From: Flavobacteriia bacterium
Lineage (GTDB): Bacteria; Bacteroidota; Bacteroidia; Flavobacteriales_D; Crocinitomicaceae
Direction: 5' to 3'
DNA length: 64,000 nucleotides
Assembly: GCA_016178305.1 (NCBI GenBank)
Contig: JACOTM010000116.1
Coordinates: 1-64,000 of the forward strand
The first letter of the stretch is position 1. The number at the start of each line of letters is the position of its first letter. A program made the translations under genes and the position numbers. The notes beneath the pieces are model-generated. The model made no database searches, was not told the DNA's origin, and worked only from the letters and a program-made list of their open reading frames with translations. This document shows positions 7,845 to 18,300 of the stretch, in pieces.

Positions 7845-8906
7845 TTATTTTTTTATTTTCATTTTGGTGAATGGACCAAATTTATGCTGAAGTTCAGTGA
7901 AATTATCTGCATACGGACCAAAAGGGTGGTCAACAGGTTTCTTTGCTTTATCTGGCCAATCCATAGGTACATCTTTATGTGGACGTACTTGAGAGTTTAC
8001 AAATGCAGCAATATCCCATGATTCTTCATCTGAAAGTTGTGCGTTTGTGTGGTTTACACCAAAGGGCATGTTGAATTTGATAAATTTTGCAAAGTTACTG
8101 ATTCTGTATAAACCTGCTCCGTCATTGTAACTATATTTCCCCCATAATGGAGGATAAATGTATTCGGTTTTATTGAAATTAAATTGACCTTCACCATTTG
8201 TTTGGTGGCAAGACGCACATTTTTGATTATAGGCAAGCATTCCATTTTTAGGATTTGCAGCTCTTGTCATTAAAGGAATCTCTTTCAATCCTGAACCAAT
8301 TGCTTTTTCTCCTTTTTTTACCTTTTTACCAATAAAGTTGATGTATTTTGCAATTGCTTTCATTTCTCGACTATTAATGGCTAATTTTTTACCATTTAAA
8401 CTTCGTTCAAAACAATCGTTAATTCGTTTGAAAACATTTTCAATTTTACCACTACGAGCTCGCATTTTGGGATACATTGATGTAACCGAACCATAATTAT
8501 TTCCAAAGATTTTTGTGCCGGCATCTAAATGACAATTTTGGCAATTCATCCCATTTGTATTTTTACTGACCAATCCATTTGGGCCTAAATATTTTGAGGT
8601 ATGTATAATTAATTCTTGACCATAGGCTAATTCTTGTCTTAATGCAGAATTACTTTCAATTCTAATGTCTTCTGCAATCCAATAATTAGCTGTATCAGTA
8701 AGATTAAAAAATGTGTTTTTTGAAGGTTGATAAGGTTGGATTGCTGTTTCAGTAATTTTTAATTGAAAAAAAGCTTCCATTTTCTCTTTATAACAAAATG
8801 CTAAAAAAAGAAGAATGATTGTGAAGAATAAAAGAAGAATAATATTGTTCTGCTTTTGAATTAATTTGATAAGTTTTTTATCAGCCATCTTTTTATTTGA
8901 ATTCAT
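7845..8906 (-). CDS. Dihaem c-type cytochrome, TsdA (thiosulfate dehydrogenase)-like
   Basis: 353 residues with one N-terminal membrane helix (about 20-38) that anchors or exports it. There are two haem c sites: CQNCH (122-126) and CASCH (230-234). The block after haem 1 (HLDAGT, MYPKMRARSGKI, RINDCFERSLNG) and the one after haem 2 (PPLWG, GAGLYRIS, FIKFNMPFG with the likely ligand Met280) follow the TsdA pattern. TsdA joins two thiosulfates to tetrathionate or runs the reverse. The first ATG overlaps the upstream SoxB-like gene by 14 bases; a second ATG (MADKK, at 8888) would avoid this. The pairing with a SoxB-like enzyme supports a sulfur role, but that remains inference. Confidence 0.82.
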   Translation of the reverse strand: MNSNKKMADKKLIKLIQKQNNIILLLFFTIILLFLAFCYKEKMEAFFQLKITETAIQPYQPSKNTFFNLTDTANYWIAEDIRIESNSALRQELAYGQELIIHTSKYLGPNGLVSKNTNGMNCQNCHLDAGTKIFGNNYGSVTSMYPKMRARSGKIENVFKRINDCFERSLNGKKLAINSREMKAIAKYINFIGKKVKKGEKAIGSGLKEIPLMTRAANPKNGMLAYNQKCASCHQTNGEGQFNFNKTEYIYPPLWGKYSYNDGAGLYRISNFAKFIKFNMPFGVNHTNAQLSDEESWDIAAFVNSQVRPHKDVPMDWPDKAKKPVDHPFGPYADNFTELQHKFGPFTKMKIKK

Positions 8907-10587
8907 AATTTACACCACTAACTTGAGTAAGTAATAATTGAGAAGCGTCAAGTACTTTTGCTGATGATTCAGGTTTTGGCGTTAATGGTGAATTTTTAGA
9001 AATATATTCAATCATTGCTTTATGAAGTGTAAAATCAGTGTTTTTTGCTTCAATTACTTTTGTCATTCTACAAAGCATATCTTCAGGGTCTCCATCTCTT
9101 TCACAAGCTAAAATACTGTACAACTGATTTTTTTCTAGTGCTTTTCCTTTTATCTGTATGGTTTGAATGCGTTTCCCATTTTCTCCATAAGCATTAAACG
9201 TAATCTCCATTCCTTTGAATTTTACAACCCAGCCACCTAATCGTTTTGATGCTTCTTTGGCAAAAACATTATTTAATTCTTTTTCCAGCCATTCACGGAT
9301 TTGGCTACCGGTCGCTTTTGCCGTTCTAATCGGACTATCAACAGGAAGCATGTCAAATATAAAACCATTTGTTATCGGAATATTCCCTGTATTGTCAGGT
9401 GTAGTTCTTGGGGGACAAAAACGAAATCCATTTGATAAAACAATATCGATTTCTGGAAACTTCCAATGTAAACCATTTAATATTAATGTGTCAATTGTGT
9501 TTTCGATTACAAAATATCTGTAAAGAGGTAAGGTACTATACCCAATTATTTGGTTAATTTCAGCTTTGAAAAGCTCTTCGTTTTGTGTTAAAATAGCCTC
9601 TACCTCTTTGTCTTTATTGATTTTTGAAGGATCTACTTCTATTAAACTATAACTATCTTGTATAATTTTTCCATTTTCGATTTCAAGATCTAATTTTCCA
9701 ATAAATGAACCAAATGCCCCCGGTTCTACAACTTTTGCATATTTACATTCAATTGGTTTTCGAACCCTTTCATGGGTATCACCGCCTAAAATGTAATTAA
9801 CTCCTTCACATTCGGGTAAATTTGCTAATGCTATTTGTTGTGAAAGACCTAAATGAGCAATTATTATAATATAAGCACATTGTTCTTGATTTTTTAAAAC
9901 ATCAACGTAATGTGCTAAATTTTCTTCTGGTTTTTTATAAATAATGCCTTTGCTATAATTTGGTGATTGACGTACAGGAACTAAATGGTCGGTGTATCCC
10001 AAAAAACCAATTTTAATCCCTTCAATATTCCAAATATAATAAGGTTGGAAAATTAATTCCCCTTTTTCTCCTTTTCCTAAATCATGGTACATATTCGCAC
10101 AAATTTTTGGAGCATTCAATGAACCCAAAAGTGTTTGCATATTTTTTTTACCATAAATCACTTCCCAATTTCCGGGTAGATATAAATCGTAATTGATCGC
10201 ATTTAATAATGGAACAAATGCTTTTCCTGTAGTTTTAACTGAAAGCTCACTTCCTTGAAACATATCTCCAGTATCAATTGTAAAAGTATTCGGATTTTTA
10301 CTTTTAAATTGTTTTATATAGGAAGCTAAATAAGAATAACCTCCCGTTTTTCTATATACAGCTTGCTCATTTTCCCAAAAAAGTTCATCGTGAGGATGGA
10401 TTTGACAATGCACATCTGTTGTTTGTAAAATACTAATTATTTTTTTTGATTTTTTTGTACATTCAGAAAGAATAGTATTAGCTGATTTATTCTCCGTGTT
10501 TTTAGCATTTAATCCAAAAGGGGTAAATAAACTTAATCCAATACCTGTATAACCTAATTTTTTGATGAATTTCCTTCTATCAGTCAT
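8893..10587 (-). CDS. Tat-exported SoxB-like metallophosphatase / 5'-nucleotidase family protein
   Basis: 564 residues. The N-terminus has a twin-arginine signal (TDRRKFIKKLGYTG), matching the (S/T)RRxFxK consensus. The calcineurin-like domain follows with DVHCQIHPHDE, IDTGDMFQGS, PGNWEVIYG, IIAHLGLS and GGDTHER. The C-terminal 5'-nucleotidase domain starts near residue 340. The NWE and GDTH forms differ from the usual GNHE and GHTH of nucleotidases; a Trp after the metal ligand is something I associate with SoxB thiosulfohydrolases. I start at ATG 10587, since a TTG 21 bases upstream spoils the Tat signal. The next gene is a TsdA-like cytochrome. Confidence 0.83.
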   Translation of the reverse strand: MTDRRKFIKKLGYTGIGLSLFTPFGLNAKNTENKSANTILSECTKKSKKIISILQTTDVHCQIHPHDELFWENEQAVYRKTGGYSYLASYIKQFKSKNPNTFTIDTGDMFQGSELSVKTTGKAFVPLLNAINYDLYLPGNWEVIYGKKNMQTLLGSLNAPKICANMYHDLGKGEKGELIFQPYYIWNIEGIKIGFLGYTDHLVPVRQSPNYSKGIIYKKPEENLAHYVDVLKNQEQCAYIIIIAHLGLSQQIALANLPECEGVNYILGGDTHERVRKPIECKYAKVVEPGAFGSFIGKLDLEIENGKIIQDSYSLIEVDPSKINKDKEVEAILTQNEELFKAEINQIIGYSTLPLYRYFVIENTIDTLILNGLHWKFPEIDIVLSNGFRFCPPRTTPDNTGNIPITNGFIFDMLPVDSPIRTAKATGSQIREWLEKELNNVFAKEASKRLGGWVVKFKGMEITFNAYGENGKRIQTIQIKGKALEKNQLYSILACERDGDPEDMLCRMTKVIEAKNTDFTLHKAMIEYISKNSPLTPKPESSAKVLDASQLLLTQVSGVNYEFK

Positions 10588-10608
10588 AATTTTAATCTCG
10601 ATAAACAA

Positions 10609-10783: not shown

Positions 10784-12136
10784 CTAATTTATATTTTGAT
10801 AAATGAATTGATGTAAAATGGATCCTTTTATTTTTGATATTTCACCTAGTTTTCTATTTGAAAAAGTATTTTGTAAACATTTAATCAAGTTTTCATTCGC
10901 TTCTTTACCTAAAGGATTTTCTTTGTTTTGTTGCATATATTTTTTGGTAGAAGTCAAAAATGATTTACAGAGATATTCATTTTTTAGATTAATTTGTAGT
11001 TGAATCATTAGTAACCTTGAAAAAAGAGCAAAGAAGTAATTATTCGAATACATTAAAGAATTTAACAATTGTATTGCTTTTTTAGGTTCATTGTTTTTGA
11101 TAAAATAAAGAGCTTTTAAAAAATGATTATAAATTAGGTATTCATTTTTATATAGAGCCGTTGAGTTTTCTATTTCTACTTGAGCACTATCTAATTCATG
11201 GTCAAGGATTAAAAATAATATTTTATAAAATAAAATGCTTTTTCCAACTTGAATAGAATGATTTCCTTGTTGAATAATTGGTCTTAAATTTTCAATGGTT
11301 TCACCTTCAAAAAAGCGAATTCGCAACTCTAAAAATTGTATTTTTTCTTTTAATTCATTTGCCTCGGATGTATTTGTGAACTCATTTAAAAGCATTTTAG
11401 CTTTCTCGAAATAGTAGTAAAAGTTACCTTCGTCATAATGTAATTTTGCTAAAGAAACAAATAAAGAACAGCGATTTAAAGGAGAGGTTTCTGAATTGAG
11501 TAATTGAAAAATTGCAAGAATAATGGTGTTTTTTTTCTCAATTACAATTTTTGTTTTTTCTAAATATATGGTTGAAATGGTCTCATAGTAATCAGCTGTT
11601 TTCTTATTGTTAGTATAGGATAATGTTTGAATCAACGTTTCATTCAATTGCAAGGATTTTTCTAAATCATAATCATTTTGCGTATAAAAATTCAATTTCA
11701 ATTGCCCTTCAATACTTAACAATTGTAGCGGTAAATCGTTTGTTAATTTTGCATGTTGTTGAACATTCTGAAAGTAATTTTTCACCAAAATAGGGTTGCC
11801 GTTTTTTTCAAGTGCTTGTGCTAACAATAGATTTTTATTGATTGGACTGCTTGTAAGAAATGATTCTATAATGACAAGTTCCAGTTGTTCACACAAAAAA
11901 TGATTTAATCGTCTTATTTTTAATTGATTTTCTTGAACAGAAGTAAAGGTCCAATGAATATTAACAGCGTTTTGAATAAAAGAATTAATTTCAACTTCAT
12001 CTTTGTGTCGAATCGAAATTAAATCTTTTAATATTTCAAAGCGTTTATCTGTACTTAAAGAACATCGATATACTATAATTTTTACTTGAGAAATTGAAAT
12101 TTCCTTTATAAGTAGATGTAATTTTTTTCCAATCAT
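10784..12136 (-). CDS. Unknown helical (TPR-like) protein, last gene of the asnA-pheA operon
   Basis: 450 residues, no signal peptide, no membrane helix. The chain is almost all amphipathic helices of 12-16 residues in pairs (for example the region LHYDEGNFYYYFEKAKMLL and KNNEPKKAIQLLNSLM), as in TPR or other alpha-solenoid proteins. No enzyme motif is visible. It starts 11 bases after the stop of the DAHP synthase/chorismate mutase gene, on the same strand, so it should be on the same attenuator-controlled transcript. The function is unknown; an adaptor or scaffold is only a guess. Confidence 0.8.
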   Translation of the reverse strand: MIGKKLHLLIKEISISQVKIIVYRCSLSTDKRFEILKDLISIRHKDEVEINSFIQNAVNIHWTFTSVQENQLKIRRLNHFLCEQLELVIIESFLTSSPINKNLLLAQALEKNGNPILVKNYFQNVQQHAKLTNDLPLQLLSIEGQLKLNFYTQNDYDLEKSLQLNETLIQTLSYTNNKKTADYYETISTIYLEKTKIVIEKKNTIILAIFQLLNSETSPLNRCSLFVSLAKLHYDEGNFYYYFEKAKMLLNEFTNTSEANELKEKIQFLELRIRFFEGETIENLRPIIQQGNHSIQVGKSILFYKILFLILDHELDSAQVEIENSTALYKNEYLIYNHFLKALYFIKNNEPKKAIQLLNSLMYSNNYFFALFSRLLMIQLQINLKNEYLCKSFLTSTKKYMQQNKENPLGKEANENLIKCLQNTFSNRKLGEISKIKGSILHQFIYQNIN

Positions 12137-12147
12137 TTCTTGAGTAC

Positions 12148-13209
12148 TTAATCAATTAAATTTTGAATACGAATGCTTTCAATGTGAATAGCTTCCATAT
12201 AATTTTTAACAAATTCATCATTTAAATTTAACTTATTTGCACGAGAAATGGTGTTTTTTAATAATTCATTCCATCTATTTGATTGTAAAATTGTTACATC
12301 GTTTGTTTTTTTAATAGATCCAATGTTTTGAGCAATATGCATTCGGTTAGCTAATAATTGTAAAACTTCTTGATCAATTGAATCAATTTGAGTTCGTAAT
12401 TGTTCCAACTCGGTTAAATAGTCATTTTTTTCACTCGAAATATTTTTCCATTGAATACTTTCTAATAATTTGATTAAATCAATAGCATTGACTTGTTGTT
12501 CTTTATCAGTTAAAGCAATTAAGGGATTGTAATGTGATTCAATCATTAAACCAGAATAAGCTAAATCAATACTTTTTTGTGCGATTTTTAGTAAATTATC
12601 TCTTTTACCACTGATGTGGGAAGGATCACAAATCATGGGTAAATCTGGAAATAATCGCTTCATTTCAATCGGAATTTGCCAAATAGGTGCATTTCGGTAT
12701 TCTGTTTCGCCATAAGTCGTAAAACCACGGTGAATTAAACCGAGACTTTCAATTCCTGCTTTTTGTATTCTTTCAACCGCACCAGTCCATAATTTTAAAT
12801 CTGGGTTAACAGGATTTTTGATTAAAACAGTTTGGTCTGTCCCTTTCAATGCTTCAGCTATTTCTTGTACAGAAAATGGATTAACACAAGTTCGGGCTCC
12901 AATCCATAATACATCAGTTTCAAAAGCAAGCGCATCTTCAACATGTTTTGCACTTGCTACTTCAACAGCTGTAGGTAAATTTGTTTGTTTTTTCACATCC
13001 ATTAACCAAGACAAGCCTTTTTTACCAACTCCTTCGAAATGACCAGGATTTGTTCTAGGTTTCCAAATTCCAGCTCTTAGTATATCTACTTTTTTTGTTT
13101 CTTTAAGTTCGAAAGCAGTACGAAGTAATTGTTCATTGTTTTCAACACTGCAAGGTCCTGCGATGATTAAATTTTGTTTTTTTATTAATGTTTTGATTGC
13201 TGTTTTCAT
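12148..13209 (-). CDS. Bifunctional DAHP synthase / chorismate mutase
   Basis: 353 residues with two domains. Residues 1 to about 260 are a 3-deoxy-7-phosphoheptulonate synthase of the KDO8P-synthase-like (type I beta) class, with GPCSVE (18-23), RAGIWKPRTNP (45-55), GARTCVNP, KNPVNPDL and CDPSHISG. About 262-353 are an AroQ-type chorismate mutase (LRTQIDSIDQEVLQLLANRM). It condenses phosphoenolpyruvate and erythrose-4-phosphate at the entry of the shikimate pathway, and also makes prephenate from chorismate. The fusion is typical of Bacteroidota. It follows pheA by 4 bases; its prephenate product is the substrate of PheA. No prephenate dehydrogenase is present in this operon. Confidence 0.95.
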   Translation of the reverse strand: MKTAIKTLIKKQNLIIAGPCSVENNEQLLRTAFELKETKKVDILRAGIWKPRTNPGHFEGVGKKGLSWLMDVKKQTNLPTAVEVASAKHVEDALAFETDVLWIGARTCVNPFSVQEIAEALKGTDQTVLIKNPVNPDLKLWTGAVERIQKAGIESLGLIHRGFTTYGETEYRNAPIWQIPIEMKRLFPDLPMICDPSHISGKRDNLLKIAQKSIDLAYSGLMIESHYNPLIALTDKEQQVNAIDLIKLLESIQWKNISSEKNDYLTELEQLRTQIDSIDQEVLQLLANRMHIAQNIGSIKKTNDVTILQSNRWNELLKNTISRANKLNLNDEFVKNYMEAIHIESIRIQNLID

Positions 13210-13213
13210 TTTT

Positions 13214-14059
13214 TCAATTTAAAAGTATATCAATGGTAGATTCTCCTTTTTGGTAAATACCTAGTATTTTGTGATTAATAACAAAAGGTTCAATCTCTTG
13301 AATTGCTTGTTCTAGTTTTCTTTTTTCAATAAATTCTAAATCTAAATGAAAGGCATAAGTAGTCGTGTTGTGGGGAATTGGAACACTCTGAATTTTCGTG
13401 AGATTAATACCTCTTGTTTTGAATTTCGTTAAAACTTCACTCAAGCTCCCAACTTCATTTTTTGTTTGTAGTGTAATTGAAGCTTTATTCGGATTTTCAA
13501 CATAATCAACACCTTTGCTTAAAATATAAAATCGGGTATAATTTATTTTTTCATCTCCAACATTTTCAATTATTTTTTCTAATCCATATTTTTCTTCAAT
13601 CATTGGACCTGCGATGACAGCAATTTGGTTCGAATTTTCTTTTACAATTAATTGAGCGGATGTTGCAGTATCACGGTATTCCGTTGCATGAATATTTTCA
13701 AGAGAAGATAAAAAATTTTGACATTGACCCAAAGCCATTGGATGTGAAATAATTTCTTGAATATCTGAAATTTTAGTCCCTTTTTTTCCAAATACATGCA
13801 ACTCAATTGGTAAATAAGTTTCTCCAATAATATTTAAATCAAATTCATCAATAAGTTGATAATTTAGTAAAATACTGCCTGCAACTTTATTTTCAATGGC
13901 AATTATTCCATAGTCAACTTTGTTTTTATAAATTTGTTCGCAAACATCTCTAAATGAATTACATTCTACGATGTTAACTTCTTCACCGAAATACTTTTTG
14001 GCAGCTAAATCATGGAATGATGATATTGAGCCTTGAATGGCAACGACGTGATTTCTCAT
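13214..14059 (-). CDS. pheA: Prephenate dehydratase
   Basis: 281 residues: a prephenate dehydratase domain (1 to about 185) and an ACT regulatory domain (about 192-280). The catalytic region is marked by DTATSA (130-135) and the TRF motif (175-177), whose Thr is the catalytic residue of the family. In the ACT domain the usual GALxxxL...NLTxIESRP reads GSLSEVL...NLTKIQSVP. The Phe-binding ESRP is thus replaced by QSVP (224-227), and feedback by phenylalanine may be changed. It makes phenylpyruvate, one transamination from Phe. It starts 2 bases after asnA ends and lies just ahead of the DAHP synthase/chorismate mutase gene. Confidence 0.95.
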   Translation of the reverse strand: MRNHVVAIQGSISSFHDLAAKKYFGEEVNIVECNSFRDVCEQIYKNKVDYGIIAIENKVAGSILLNYQLIDEFDLNIIGETYLPIELHVFGKKGTKISDIQEIISHPMALGQCQNFLSSLENIHATEYRDTATSAQLIVKENSNQIAVIAGPMIEEKYGLEKIIENVGDEKINYTRFYILSKGVDYVENPNKASITLQTKNEVGSLSEVLTKFKTRGINLTKIQSVPIPHNTTTYAFHLDLEFIEKRKLEQAIQEIEPFVINHKILGIYQKGESTIDILLN

Positions 14060-14061
14060 GT

Positions 14062-15084
14062 TTATAAAATTTGAATTGATTTGTTATTTTCTTCTAAAAT
14101 TTCATCAGTCCAAATACTGCATTGAACTTCTGAAATATGTTTTTTGTTTAATAAAAGCATCGCTAGTCGGGATTGACCTATTCCTCCACCTATTGTGTAT
14201 GGTAATTGTTCGTTTATTAATTGTTGATGCCAAGCGAGTTTTATCCGATTTTGCTGTTTTGAAATTTCGAGTTGCTTTATTAATGATTCAGGACTAACAC
14301 GAATGCCCATAGAAGATATTTCAATAGGTTTTTGTAATAATGGATTCCAAATTAATATATCTCCATTCAAACCTTTTTTTCCCGATGTGGTTTCAGATGA
14401 CCAATCATCATAATCTGGTGCTCTTCCATCATGAGGCTCACCATTTGATAATTCATTTCCTACACCAATAATAAAAACAGCTCCATGTTTTTGAGTAATT
14501 TTATGTTCTCGTTCTTTTGAATTCAGTTCAGGATACAATGCTAGTAATTCCTCCGAATGAATAAAGAAAATTGCAGCTGGCAAAAAACTTTCAATTTGAG
14601 AATATTGTTCAATTATTATTTTTTCGGTTTCAATAAAGCTTTGATAAATTAATTGGACTGTTTCTTTTAAATAAGCTAGATTTCGATCTGCTGGAGAAAT
14701 CCTTTTTTCCCAATCCCATTGATCGACTAAGATACTGTGAATGTCATCCATGTTTTCATCCGCACGAATGGCTTTCATATCGGTATAAATTCCCTCTCCG
14801 ACCTCTATTTGTAGTTTTTTAATTTTACTTCTTTTCCATTTAGCTAAAGAATGAATAATTTCTACTTTTTTAGTAGGTAAACTTTTTATATTTACGTTGA
14901 CAGGAGTTTCAATCCCATTTAAATCATCATTGATTCCTGTGCCAGTTTCTACAAAAAGTGGAGCTTCAACTTTTGTTAATTGTAGCTTATCTGCTAATTT
15001 TTTAGAAAAAACTTCTTTCAGAATAGAAATAGCTTTTTCTGTTTCTAATTCACTTAAAATGAATTTTTCGACTTGTGTTTGCAT
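14062..15084 (-). CDS. asnA: Aspartate-ammonia ligase (asparagine synthetase A)
   Basis: 340 residues, close to the about 330 of E. coli AsnA. It is a class II aminoacyl-tRNA-synthetase-like enzyme that makes asparagine from aspartate, ammonia and ATP. Family blocks are present: FVETGTGINDDLNG near the N-terminus, VEIIHSLAKWKR, VDQWDWEK, GRAPDYDDW in the centre and GGIGQSRLAMLLL at the end. It is the first gene of the operon and is followed within 2 bases by pheA. Its expression should depend on the attenuator that ends 24 bases upstream. The coupling of an asparagine gene to aromatic genes is unusual. Confidence 0.96.
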   Translation of the reverse strand: MQTQVEKFILSELETEKAISILKEVFSKKLADKLQLTKVEAPLFVETGTGINDDLNGIETPVNVNIKSLPTKKVEIIHSLAKWKRSKIKKLQIEVGEGIYTDMKAIRADENMDDIHSILVDQWDWEKRISPADRNLAYLKETVQLIYQSFIETEKIIIEQYSQIESFLPAAIFFIHSEELLALYPELNSKEREHKITQKHGAVFIIGVGNELSNGEPHDGRAPDYDDWSSETTSGKKGLNGDILIWNPLLQKPIEISSMGIRVSPESLIKQLEISKQQNRIKLAWHQQLINEQLPYTIGGGIGQSRLAMLLLNKKHISEVQCSIWTDEILEENNKSIQIL

Positions 15085-15107
15085 TTGTTTATATTTATTT
15101 TATAATC

Positions 15108-15138
15108 AAAAAAAAAGCCTTCCAAAATTGGAAGGCTT
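15108..15138 (-). terminator. Attenuator: intrinsic terminator ahead of asnA
   Basis: On the minus strand AAGCCTTCCAA (15138-15128) and TTGGAAGGCTT (15125-15115) make an 11-bp perfect stem with a tiny loop, followed at once by nine T residues. It lies between the leader ORF and asnA, in the same direction as the operon, so RNA polymerase must pass it to reach asnA. The 5' arm can instead pair with an upstream segment (15172-15166), which would break the terminator. Confidence 0.92.
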
Positions 15139-15172
15139 AACCTAATAGTATTTTAAATACATATTCCTTCCA
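15129..15172 (-). promoter_or_regulatory. Putative antiterminator competing with the asnA attenuator
   Basis: In the RNA, UGGAAGG (15172-15166), just after the leader stop codon, is complementary to CCUUCCA (15135-15129), the 5' arm of the terminator. Between them GUAUU-UAA-AAUAC can form a nested 5-bp hairpin that brings the arms together. A ribosome stalled on the Phe/Asn codons would leave UGGAAGG free. One that reaches the stop at 15175 would cover it and let the terminator form. Confidence 0.75.
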
Positions 15173-15174
15173 TG

Positions 15175-15225
15175 TCACGTCATGTAATTATTATTAAAGA
15201 AGAAATATGTGTTATTTATTTTCAT
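15175..15225 (-). CDS. Leader peptide of the asnA-pheA-aroG/CM operon (Asn/Phe/Tyr-rich)
   Basis: A 16-codon ORF, ATG to TGA, encoding MKINNTYFFFNNNYMT. Of 16 residues, 5 are Asn, 3 Phe and 2 Tyr, and positions 7-14 read YFFFNNNY. These are just the products served by the operon: AsnA makes Asn, PheA makes the Phe precursor, and DAHP synthase/chorismate mutase feeds Phe and Tyr. The ORF lies about 15 bases behind a TAnnTTTG promoter and ends 3 bases before the antiterminator arm, as in classical trp/phe/his leaders. It is too short for gene finders. No Shine-Dalgarno sequence is seen, as is normal for this phylum. Confidence 0.85.
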   Translation of the reverse strand: MKINNTYFFFNNNYMT

Positions 15226-15244
15226 TGTTTATTTTATTGCGATA

Positions 15245-15252
15245 CAAATGTA
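15245..15252 (-). promoter_or_regulatory. -7 promoter element (TACATTTG) of the asnA operon leader
   Basis: A perfect match to the Bacteroidota -7 consensus TAnnTTTG on the minus strand, placing the transcript start near 15240, about 15 bases before the leader ATG. The -33 region is T-rich (15272-15277) but lacks a clear TTG. Confidence 0.7.
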
Positions 15253-15387
15253 AGTCATTAAATTTGATTATTAAAAAATAAATTCATTAAAACTTTCAAA
15301 TGCTTTTCAATGTGTTATTGTTTAATTTATTGTTAACCAACATTTAATATTTATTTTTATTAGTTTCAAGTAGGACTAATTAGTGTT

Positions 15388-18300
15388 TTAATTGCTTTTT
15401 GTAAGATATCCACTTTTTTCAAAAGGTGTCTCATCTTTAAAAAGTCCTTTGATTAAATAGAAATAAACTCCATCTGGTAATTCTTCAGAATTCATATTTT
15501 TACCATTCCAAATATAAGTGCCAACGACATTGTTATTTTCAAAAACGACATTACCCCATCGGTTTAAAATGAGAACATTGTAGTTTTTGAAGATATTAAA
15601 AGGAAATTGAAAAAGATCATTAACACCATCTCCATTTGGTGTGAAAACATTGGGAATCTCAATGTCTCCAGAAATATGAATTTGAATTGATGAAGTGTCT
15701 TTGCATCCATTAGCATCTGTTATAATTAAAGATACAGTGTAAATATAGGGTAGTCCATAATTAAATGTGGTATTAGCATCACTTGTATTGAGTTGATTTG
15801 TATTGTTAAAATCACCGAAACTCCAATTCCAAGAAGTTATCGGAACATTAAAAGTAGATTGATCATCAAATATTACAGGCATGCCTATACTACTTTCGGT
15901 TGGGTTTGCAGTAAAATTGGCATTTAGTTGGTTACTGATTATGTTAAGTGTATCCTTGTATGGTATCGCACAATTTAAATTATCATAAATGGTAAGAATT
16001 GGATAATAAACACCTTGATTTGGATAATTGTGTTCTTGACTTAAATTAGATGTAATAGTTGTACCATCCCCAAAATCCCAAGTAAAATGATCAATATCAA
16101 TTGGAGATAAAGTATCAAAAATATAGGCATTATCACATAAAAAGGGTGTTGGAATAATCGAGGGAATTACTGTAGGTCCACCTATTGTTAGATAATCTAC
16201 TAGCAAAGTATCGTCAACGCATCCAAATTGATCTGTAATTTGTAGGTTTAATGAATATGTTCCTGCAAAAACATACGTATTACTAGGATTTGTTAAAGAT
16301 GAATTTTTTCCATCACCAAAAATCCAATTTGAATTATAGGCTCCGTATGAATTGCTTTGATTTTGAAAAGTACCAAATACTGGGGGACAAGTAGAAACAC
16401 CATTGCCATTCATGTTTGCTCCACTAAGAGCAAAATCCATATTAGCATAAGGTAAAGAGACTGTTATCGTTTTTGTGAGACTGTCTATACATCCATTTCC
16501 ATCTGTTACGTAAAGAGTCAAGTCATGTGAAATATGGTCGTAATTTATCGATTGATTTTCATCAAAAAATCCATTGTAATTTGTTGTATTCGATGCTGAT
16601 ATGTAATCAATGCTCCATTCGTAAGTCAATAAGTTAAAGCCTGTTGAATTATTTAAAGCAATAAAATTCTCTAAGTCACAGACAACACTATCAACTGTAA
16701 ATTGTGGGATTGGAAGTGTGATATTCATTGCTATAGTTGTTGGTTGTGAAACGCAACCAAAACCATCTGTTGCAACAAGTGAGGTGTTAAATGTTCCTTG
16801 TGTTGTAAAATCAAAATTAGTGTTCGTATTTAGATTGTTTGTTGTCATTGTAGAATTATCAGGAAATGTCCATGAAAAACTAGAGAAAGTTGGGTAGCCA
16901 TTTCCTTGTGGTGTTGATAAATTGCTATAAGTAACGGTTGTAGGGGCACAACCAGCAATTGCAGAAGGATTAATGTTTGCTGAAGGCAATTCGAGCACAT
17001 CAAAACCATTAAACGTAAAAGTACCTGAGCATCCAACATTATTTGTTGCGGTTAATGTAATAGGATATGATCCAGATGTAGTATAAGTATAAGTTGCTGG
17101 AGAATTCGAAATGTTTTGACCATTCCCCATATTAAAACTATAAGTCCCAAATGAATTTGTTGAAGTTGATGTGCTTGTTAATGTTACACTGTTGTTTTTG
17201 CAAATTGAATCGTTTGATAATGTGAAGTTTGCAACTGTTTGAGAAATGATAATGGCTTGAGTCGTACTATCTTGACAACCTGTTGTGTAGTTGTAAACAA
17301 CTTGTTTGATATTATACGTTCCATAAGTCGTATAGTTAAAACTAGAAGAGCCATCATCATCAGGATCTAAGTCAGCGTCTTCTAATATTGTATTTGAGTT
17401 TAATGCATCTCCCCATCTCCAAATCATTTTTACATCATCACTAGCTTTACCAATTATTGCATTGTCAGTTACAGCAACATTGACAGGGAAAGAACTTGGA
17501 TTACAATATAAAGTTTGTGCAGGAGAAAACAATGAGATTGGAGCTTTGATGAAAACAGCGCTATCTATTAAAAGAGTATCTTTACAACCTCTAAAGTTGA
17601 CGATTAATTGGACGTCAAAATAACCTGTGTCTGTAGGATATGACCACGTGGGGTTTTGCACAGTTGAAGTTCCGCCATCTCCAAAGCTCCAATTGTAGGT
17701 AACTTCGCTTGGTAAATGTGGCGTATTTATTATAGATAAATCAGTAAAGGTTACATTTGACTTTGCACATTGTATGGCAGGTAAATAAGAAAAATTTACG
17801 AGATCAATTTCTCCAACTTGAATATAATCATTTTTTATCTCAGTGTCTGTACAACCATTTTGAGTTGTAATTGTTAAGGAGATGTCATAAACTCCAGTAT
17901 TAAAAATGTGAGCGGGGGGTGTTTGTCCGTTGTATGTTGTCCCATCTCCAAAATCCCAAAGCCAATTTGTTATCGGATCAGTAGAGCTTGATAAGTTGAT
18001 GAAATTTACAGTTAAAGGTGTACATCCATTTGTTGGAAAAGAAGAAAAATTAGCTATTGGAGGAGTTGTAATGATGTAATTCGTAATAGAATTTGAAGCC
18101 TGACAACCTAGAATTCCAGTTGATGAAAGCGTAACAGTAAAATTTCCGTAAGAATTGTAAGTATGAATTGGAGGAGTTTGACCATTGTAAGTTGTACCAT
18201 CACCAAATGTCCAAACAAAATTAGAACCGCTTGAAGAGGTGTTTGTAAATGTTACATTTAAGGGAGCACAACCATTTAAAGGTGTTCCCGAAAAACTAGG

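Follow-up and report, generated by a model that had tools for sequence, protein, structure and literature searches.

According to our analysis, the DNA upstream of asnA in the window (the whole analysed stretch of 64,000 nucleotides) very probably encodes a ribosome-mediated transcription attenuator of the trp/his/phe type, with a dual specificity for asparagine and phenylalanine that would make it an OR gate. The sequence supports the anatomy of this leader, its conservation, the covariation of its stems and the match between its codons and the genes behind it; from these we infer ribosome stalling, termination and read-through. A preliminary description of the same DNA had proposed an attenuator with a mixed Asn/Phe/Tyr leader peptide, and the comparative data suggest that this interpretation was largely right.

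Structure of the leader and of the operon

All elements lie on the minus strand. A TAnnTTTG -7 promoter element (TACATTTG, 15245–15252) precedes a leader ORF of 16 codons and a TGA stop at 15175–15225 (ATG AAA ATA AAT AAC ACA TAT TTC TTC TTT AAT AAT AAT TAC ATG ACG TGA). The ORF encodes MKINNTYFFFNNNYMT, with Asn, Phe and possibly Tyr as control codons, and is supported by homologous mixed leaders in other asnA-pheA operons. Two nucleotides 3' of the stop codon begins the putative antiterminator arm, segment 2 (UGGAAGGAAUAUGU, 15159–15172), with the core UGGAAGG at 15172–15166. Segment 3 (AAGCCUUCCA, 15129–15138) is the 5' side of the terminator and is common to the antiterminator and the terminator; the 3' side of the stem, segment 4 (15124–15115), runs into a T tract ending at 15108, the two together occupying 15108–15124. 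The terminator hairpin, AAGCCTTCCA-ATTT-TGGAAGGCTT at 15138–15115, has a 10-bp stem and a 4-nt loop, and the region 15107–15165 folds at -16.8 kcal/mol. The promoter element, ORF, arm and terminator were all read directly where the preliminary description had put them. Its nine U were found as well, as nine T at 15116–15108, but two of these lie inside the stem, which has 10 bp and not the 11 bp proposed.

The arm-based layout was also upheld overall, although the earlier account missed one pairing. In the minimum-energy fold, codons Thr6 to Phe10 of the leader (ACAUAUUUCUUCU, 15198–15210) pair with GGAAGGAAUAUGU in the arm and thus form a candidate protector, segment 1. The arrangement appears to be the classic four-segment layout of the trp type.

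The proposed operon was confirmed by profile matches. Its first gene, asnA (14062–15084, start at 15084), encodes an aspartate-ammonia ligase that matches PF03590 and the equivalog model TIGR00669 (416.6 bits, cut-off 292.8). After 2 bases follows pheA (13214–14059), a prephenate dehydratase gene (PF00800, 177 bits) whose product has a weak C-terminal ACT match (PF01842, 22.1 bits, under the cut-off of 27), and after 4 further bases aroG/CM (12148–13209), encoding a DAHP synthase fused to a chorismate mutase (PF00793 and PF01817). An ORF of 450 amino acids on the same strand (10784–12136), 11 bases past the DAHP synthase/chorismate mutase gene, is possibly a further operon member; it had no Pfam or NCBIfam match. 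Elsewhere in the window, at 8893–10608 and 7845–8906, a SoxB-like metallophosphoesterase (224.8 bits, under the SoxB cut-off of 550) adjoins a protein with c-type-cytochrome-like CxxCH motifs.

Several comparisons place the leader beyond chance. A search of the 3.6 Mb genome gives a single occurrence of the triple pattern of arm and terminator, and none of the reversed control. At least five Asn and at least five Phe/Tyr codons within 15 codons have a probability of 1.6 × 10⁻⁴ under local random codons and 2.5 × 10⁻⁶ with the composition taken from the window's proteins. The folding energy of the leader lies 3.6 sd under that of shuffled sequences, none of 200 being equally low, and of 40 homologous leader ORFs, 23 have TAnnTTTG in the 90 nt before them, where shuffles predict 2.9.

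RNA pairings and predicted mechanism

The preliminary description had the arm pair with the 5' side of the terminator. In the window this pairing (segments 2:3) reaches -11.1 kcal/mol, a value matched by one of 200 shuffles. Over 50 leaders the mean antiterminator pairing is -9.64 kcal/mol, compared with -6.20 kcal/mol for shuffles (p = 2.9 × 10⁻¹⁰) and -7.36 kcal/mol when arms and terminators are exchanged between species (p = 4.7 × 10⁻⁷; 0 of 20,000 permutations equal). A narrower arm region starting near the stop codon, which misses arms inside longer ORFs, gave p = 0.10 for self against cross pairing. Covariation was judged by this cross-pairing permutation rather than by pair counts, because the MAFFT alignment shifted some arms by 1–2 columns. 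Because arms were sought only past the final N/F/Y/W doublet, codon counts close to the arm are biased, to the same degree in all groups; a fixed codon window gives the same picture of the groups. Pairing between leader codons and arm (segments 1:2) exceeds that of synonymous recodings across 49 leaders (p = 6 × 10⁻¹⁰), while for the window leader taken alone 23 of 200 recodings pair equally well. Homologous leaders also carry an intrinsic terminator between the ORF and the first structural gene, at a steady distance from the stop codon (mostly 20–40 nt across genera).

Assuming that the ribosome covers 16 nt, counted from the P-site codon, the arm in the window is free as long as the A-site codon is 14 or lower, codon 14 being the last Asn/Phe/Tyr codon, and is covered from codon 15 onward. 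The features expected of an attenuator thus appear together: a codon-rich ORF, a terminator, a covarying antiterminator, a 1:2 protector and suitably placed control codons.

In the mechanism that we propose, RNA polymerase would transcribe the leader while a ribosome translates its ORF. With charged tRNA-Asn or tRNA-Phe scarce, the ribosome would stall within codons 4–13, leaving segment 2 free to pair with segment 3 and allowing read-through into asnA, pheA and the DAHP synthase/chorismate mutase gene. Since a shortage of either amino acid would free the arm, the leader would operate as an OR gate. With asparagine and phenylalanine both plentiful, a ribosome at the last codons or the stop would cover segment 2, so that the 3:4 terminator forms and transcription ends near 15108. 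In untranslated RNA, segment 2 could be taken up by segment 1 (here codons 6–10), which would likewise let the terminator form.

Leader codons and gene content in relatives

The asnA and pheA loci came from whole genomes at the level of genus, family, order and phylum, plus named genomes. A uniform rule sought in each upstream region a terminator and ATG ORFs of 8–40 codons ending near it. Choosing the longest ORF takes the wrong one at a few pheA loci; choosing by distance gives the same group differences. The leader of G330 was missed by the rule and added by eye, and MKTMNINFFNFNNNHIR (G009), whose contig ends inside asnA, was assigned to the asnA-pheA group by synteny.

Several genera have a mixed Asn/Phe leader before asnA-pheA, for example MKMMSNNFFFNNNNHIR (G010), MKTMNNNFFNFNNHTK (G008), MIINNNFFFFFNHFKF (G331), MIYMQNAANNNFNFFISD (G177) and MISSRNNNSFFNYNSM (G235), among others; the asnA-pheA locus of G382 has two tandem leaders. 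Leaders of pheA lacking an accompanying asnA are aromatic, as in G001 (MTQNFNFFFFSFFHKCD), and those of asnA lacking pheA are Asn-rich, as in the Bacteroidales UBA8529 (MNNLFNNNFSNNSFNNNWKIWEGIV and MLQRINNNNNNRPPPPGMVT), Hymenobacter pini (MRHFRNNLQNNNSNNNLIRDWKAIAPLEN) and Mesonia (MKKSINNNNNNNST). In Prevotella-like Bacteroidales, such a leader was absent from most asnA loci.

The same division is seen in the control window, defined as the last eight codons at which the arm is still free. Asn makes up 36% of it at asnA-pheA, 62% at asnA alone and 6% at pheA alone; the corresponding values for F/Y/W are 47%, 8% and 62%. With leaders taken as independent, asnA-pheA leaders differ in Asn content from pheA-alone leaders at p = 5.3 × 10⁻⁶ and in F/Y/W content from asnA-alone leaders at p = 2.3 × 10⁻⁵. 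The mixed type, with at least two N and at least two F/Y/W in eight codons, accounts for 10 of 11 asnA-pheA leaders and 4 of 37 others (Fisher p = 1.5 × 10⁻⁶). All-pyrimidine codons encode Phe in 90% of cases in asnA-pheA leaders and in 62% in asnA-only leaders (p = 0.002), and the codons that cover the arm are nearly without Asn. There are exceptions: the asnA-pheA leader of G407 is Asn-poor (3/20), the pheA-only leader of G134 retains four Asn, and the asnA leader of G005 retains FF with no adjacent pheA. In addition, the asnA-only leaders L119 (Hymenobacter frigidus), L146 and L149 carry several Phe codons that lie outside the Asn run. The match between leader codons and operon products asserted in the preliminary description therefore extends to relatives, where codon content tracks gene content, and the conservation it had proposed to look for, of leader codons and of competing stems, was found in both respects.

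Tyrosine was the part of that claim which did not hold: the leaders of the congeners G008, G009 and G010 lack Tyr, and we therefore rejected tyrosine sensing as a conserved trait. No prephenate dehydrogenase was found in the genome, and a Biopterin_H (phenylalanine hydroxylase-like) gene (L167/L168, G000:C82:46454-47118) is split over two stretches and has an internal TGA, perhaps through an assembly error or as a pseudogene; from these two observations one may speculate that tyrosine depends on phenylalanine. The AsnB-like genes of the genome score under the asparagine-synthase cut-offs, the fragments compared being partial, so AsnA may be the dedicated asparagine synthetase.

Alternative explanations

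The aromatic codons raise the question of whether only asparagine is sensed. If the Asn run alone did the sensing, the Phe codons would exist since UUCUUC must pair with GGAAGG in the 1:2 stem; the excess of this pairing over synonymous recoding fits such a reading, as do the Phe codons lying apart from the Asn run in L146, L149 and L119. Nevertheless, we consider it unlikely, given the contrast between asnA-pheA and asnA-only leaders both in F/Y/W content of the control window (47% against 8%) and in the Phe share of all-pyrimidine codons (90% against 62%), and given the aromatic leaders of relatives with pheA only. Phenylalanine is still the weaker half of the predicted dual sensing, and part of its signal could be structural: as Phe codons (UUC) also build segment 1, and several occur in those three asnA-only leaders, not every Phe codon need sense. 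The converse possibility, an old Phe attenuator of pheA behind which asnA was inserted, with Asn codons that are neutral products of A+T-rich sequence, is very unlikely. Leaders at pheA alone are widespread and probably ancestral, and AAT is common among the codons of this genome, but neutral Asn codons accord poorly with 36% Asn in asnA-pheA control windows against 6% in pheA-only ones, with the near absence of Asn from the arm-covering codons, or with the Asn runs that asnA-only leaders carry even in Hymenobacter and Bacteroidales.

A reading in which the hairpin simply terminates the upstream gene, asnA has a promoter after it and the short ORF is a chance feature is extremely unlikely. The upstream gene does end at 15388 on the same strand as asnA, and intergenic terminators are common; however, the promoter element sits upstream of the terminator, and the combination of leader, arm and terminator is conserved in different genera, with covariation and a steady spacing. 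To control by another RNA device (a T-box, a metabolite riboswitch or a protein-bound leader) we assign a probability close to nil. T-boxes are regulators of amino acid genes in Firmicutes, which makes such a device conceivable here. They have been surveyed in PMC2494555. A scan of the window against Rfam, however, gave no hit at the gathering level, to a T-box or any other family, and 15050–15300 yielded no T-box under permissive settings (up to E = 10).

Evolution and tandem leaders

On the PheA tree, the state with asnA before pheA needs five changes, at least four of them on supported branches. Among the 4–5 independent contrasts that the tree offers, too few for significance, Asn content moved in the same direction as asnA in an average of 2.7 of 4 and very seldom in the opposite one. 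The closest comparison is within one genus: G235 has asnA-pheA and MISSRNNNSFFNYNSM, whereas G134 has MNSRNNMSFFYYNSM in clearly homologous DNA and no asnA match in a genome rated 100% complete. The respective leader stretches read NNNSFFNYNSM and NNMSFFYYNSM.

Elsewhere in the phylum, predicted Asn-only attenuators precede asnA, often in tandem. Tandem attenuators before asnA were seen in L005, L006, L024, L040, L061, L075 and L094, the first often mixed or Asn-rich and the second mostly Asn. The second leader upstream of asnA often has an Asn(/Phe) run and, after it, PP or PPP (L061, L075, L006, L028, L024, L040); such promoter-distal leaders include NNNNNNRPPPPG, NNNNNRPPPLG, NNNNNNSPPDGG, NNNKAPPWEG, NNFFFGPPP and NFFNTPP. 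Their Pro codons may have a role in RNA pairing or in a ribosome pause.

Based on these comparisons, it is likely that the window represents a class of two-input attenuators (Asn or Phe) in Bacteroidota, which arose repeatedly by gain or loss of asnA at pheA with codons retuned in place, and which belongs to a wider, undescribed family of asparagine attenuators at asnA, several of them tandem.

Relation to known systems

The pheA, trp and his leaders of E. coli resemble the present one in having a peptide rich in regulatory codons, four competing RNA segments, an intrinsic terminator and a biosynthetic operon downstream. They differ in responding to one amino acid each and in occurring in other bacteria without evident sequence similarity, and the -7 element here is of the Bacteroidota type, unlike that of the E. 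coli attenuators. The leaders of ilvGMEDA, ilvBN and thr contain codons for more than one amino acid of the operon, within one pathway. These operons are named as attenuated in PMC1183508. Their likeness lies in coding several operon-linked amino acids in one leader; in contrast, Asn and Phe do not share a pathway, and the codon mix described here changes as one gene is gained or lost.

For Flavobacterium psychrophilum and further Flavobacteriaceae, a structured 5' element ahead of pheA has been reported, together with strong clues for leader-peptide attenuation at amino acid operons and conserved elements without an Rfam match (PMC9723704). It is likewise a transcribed pheA leader, but it belongs to pheA and not to asnA-pheA, and asparagine does not appear in the main text of that study. 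Rfam RF01859 (Phe_leader), also a Phe leader with a terminator, gives a weak match spanning the terminator region, which at 31.6 bits, the gathering score being 55, does not make our leader a member.

The mechanism is thus of a known kind. The preliminary description knew of no leader sensing asparagine together with aromatic amino acids, and our search of mainly open-access literature, which did not include Lopatovskaya et al. 2010 (PubMed 20198868, cited in PMC4833913), an attenuator survey said to be the likeliest to list an asparagine leader, found neither leader-peptide sensing of asparagine nor a leader combining Asn and Phe; both appear to be undescribed.

If the proposed reading is correct, asparagine would join the amino acids sensed through leader-peptide attenuation, and one leader would combine the inputs of two unrelated pathways. 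The repeated gain or loss of asnA beside pheA, in pairs as close as G235 and G134, would then document in nature the re-coding of a regulatory peptide after a change in its operon, and would open the evolution of attenuators to direct testing.
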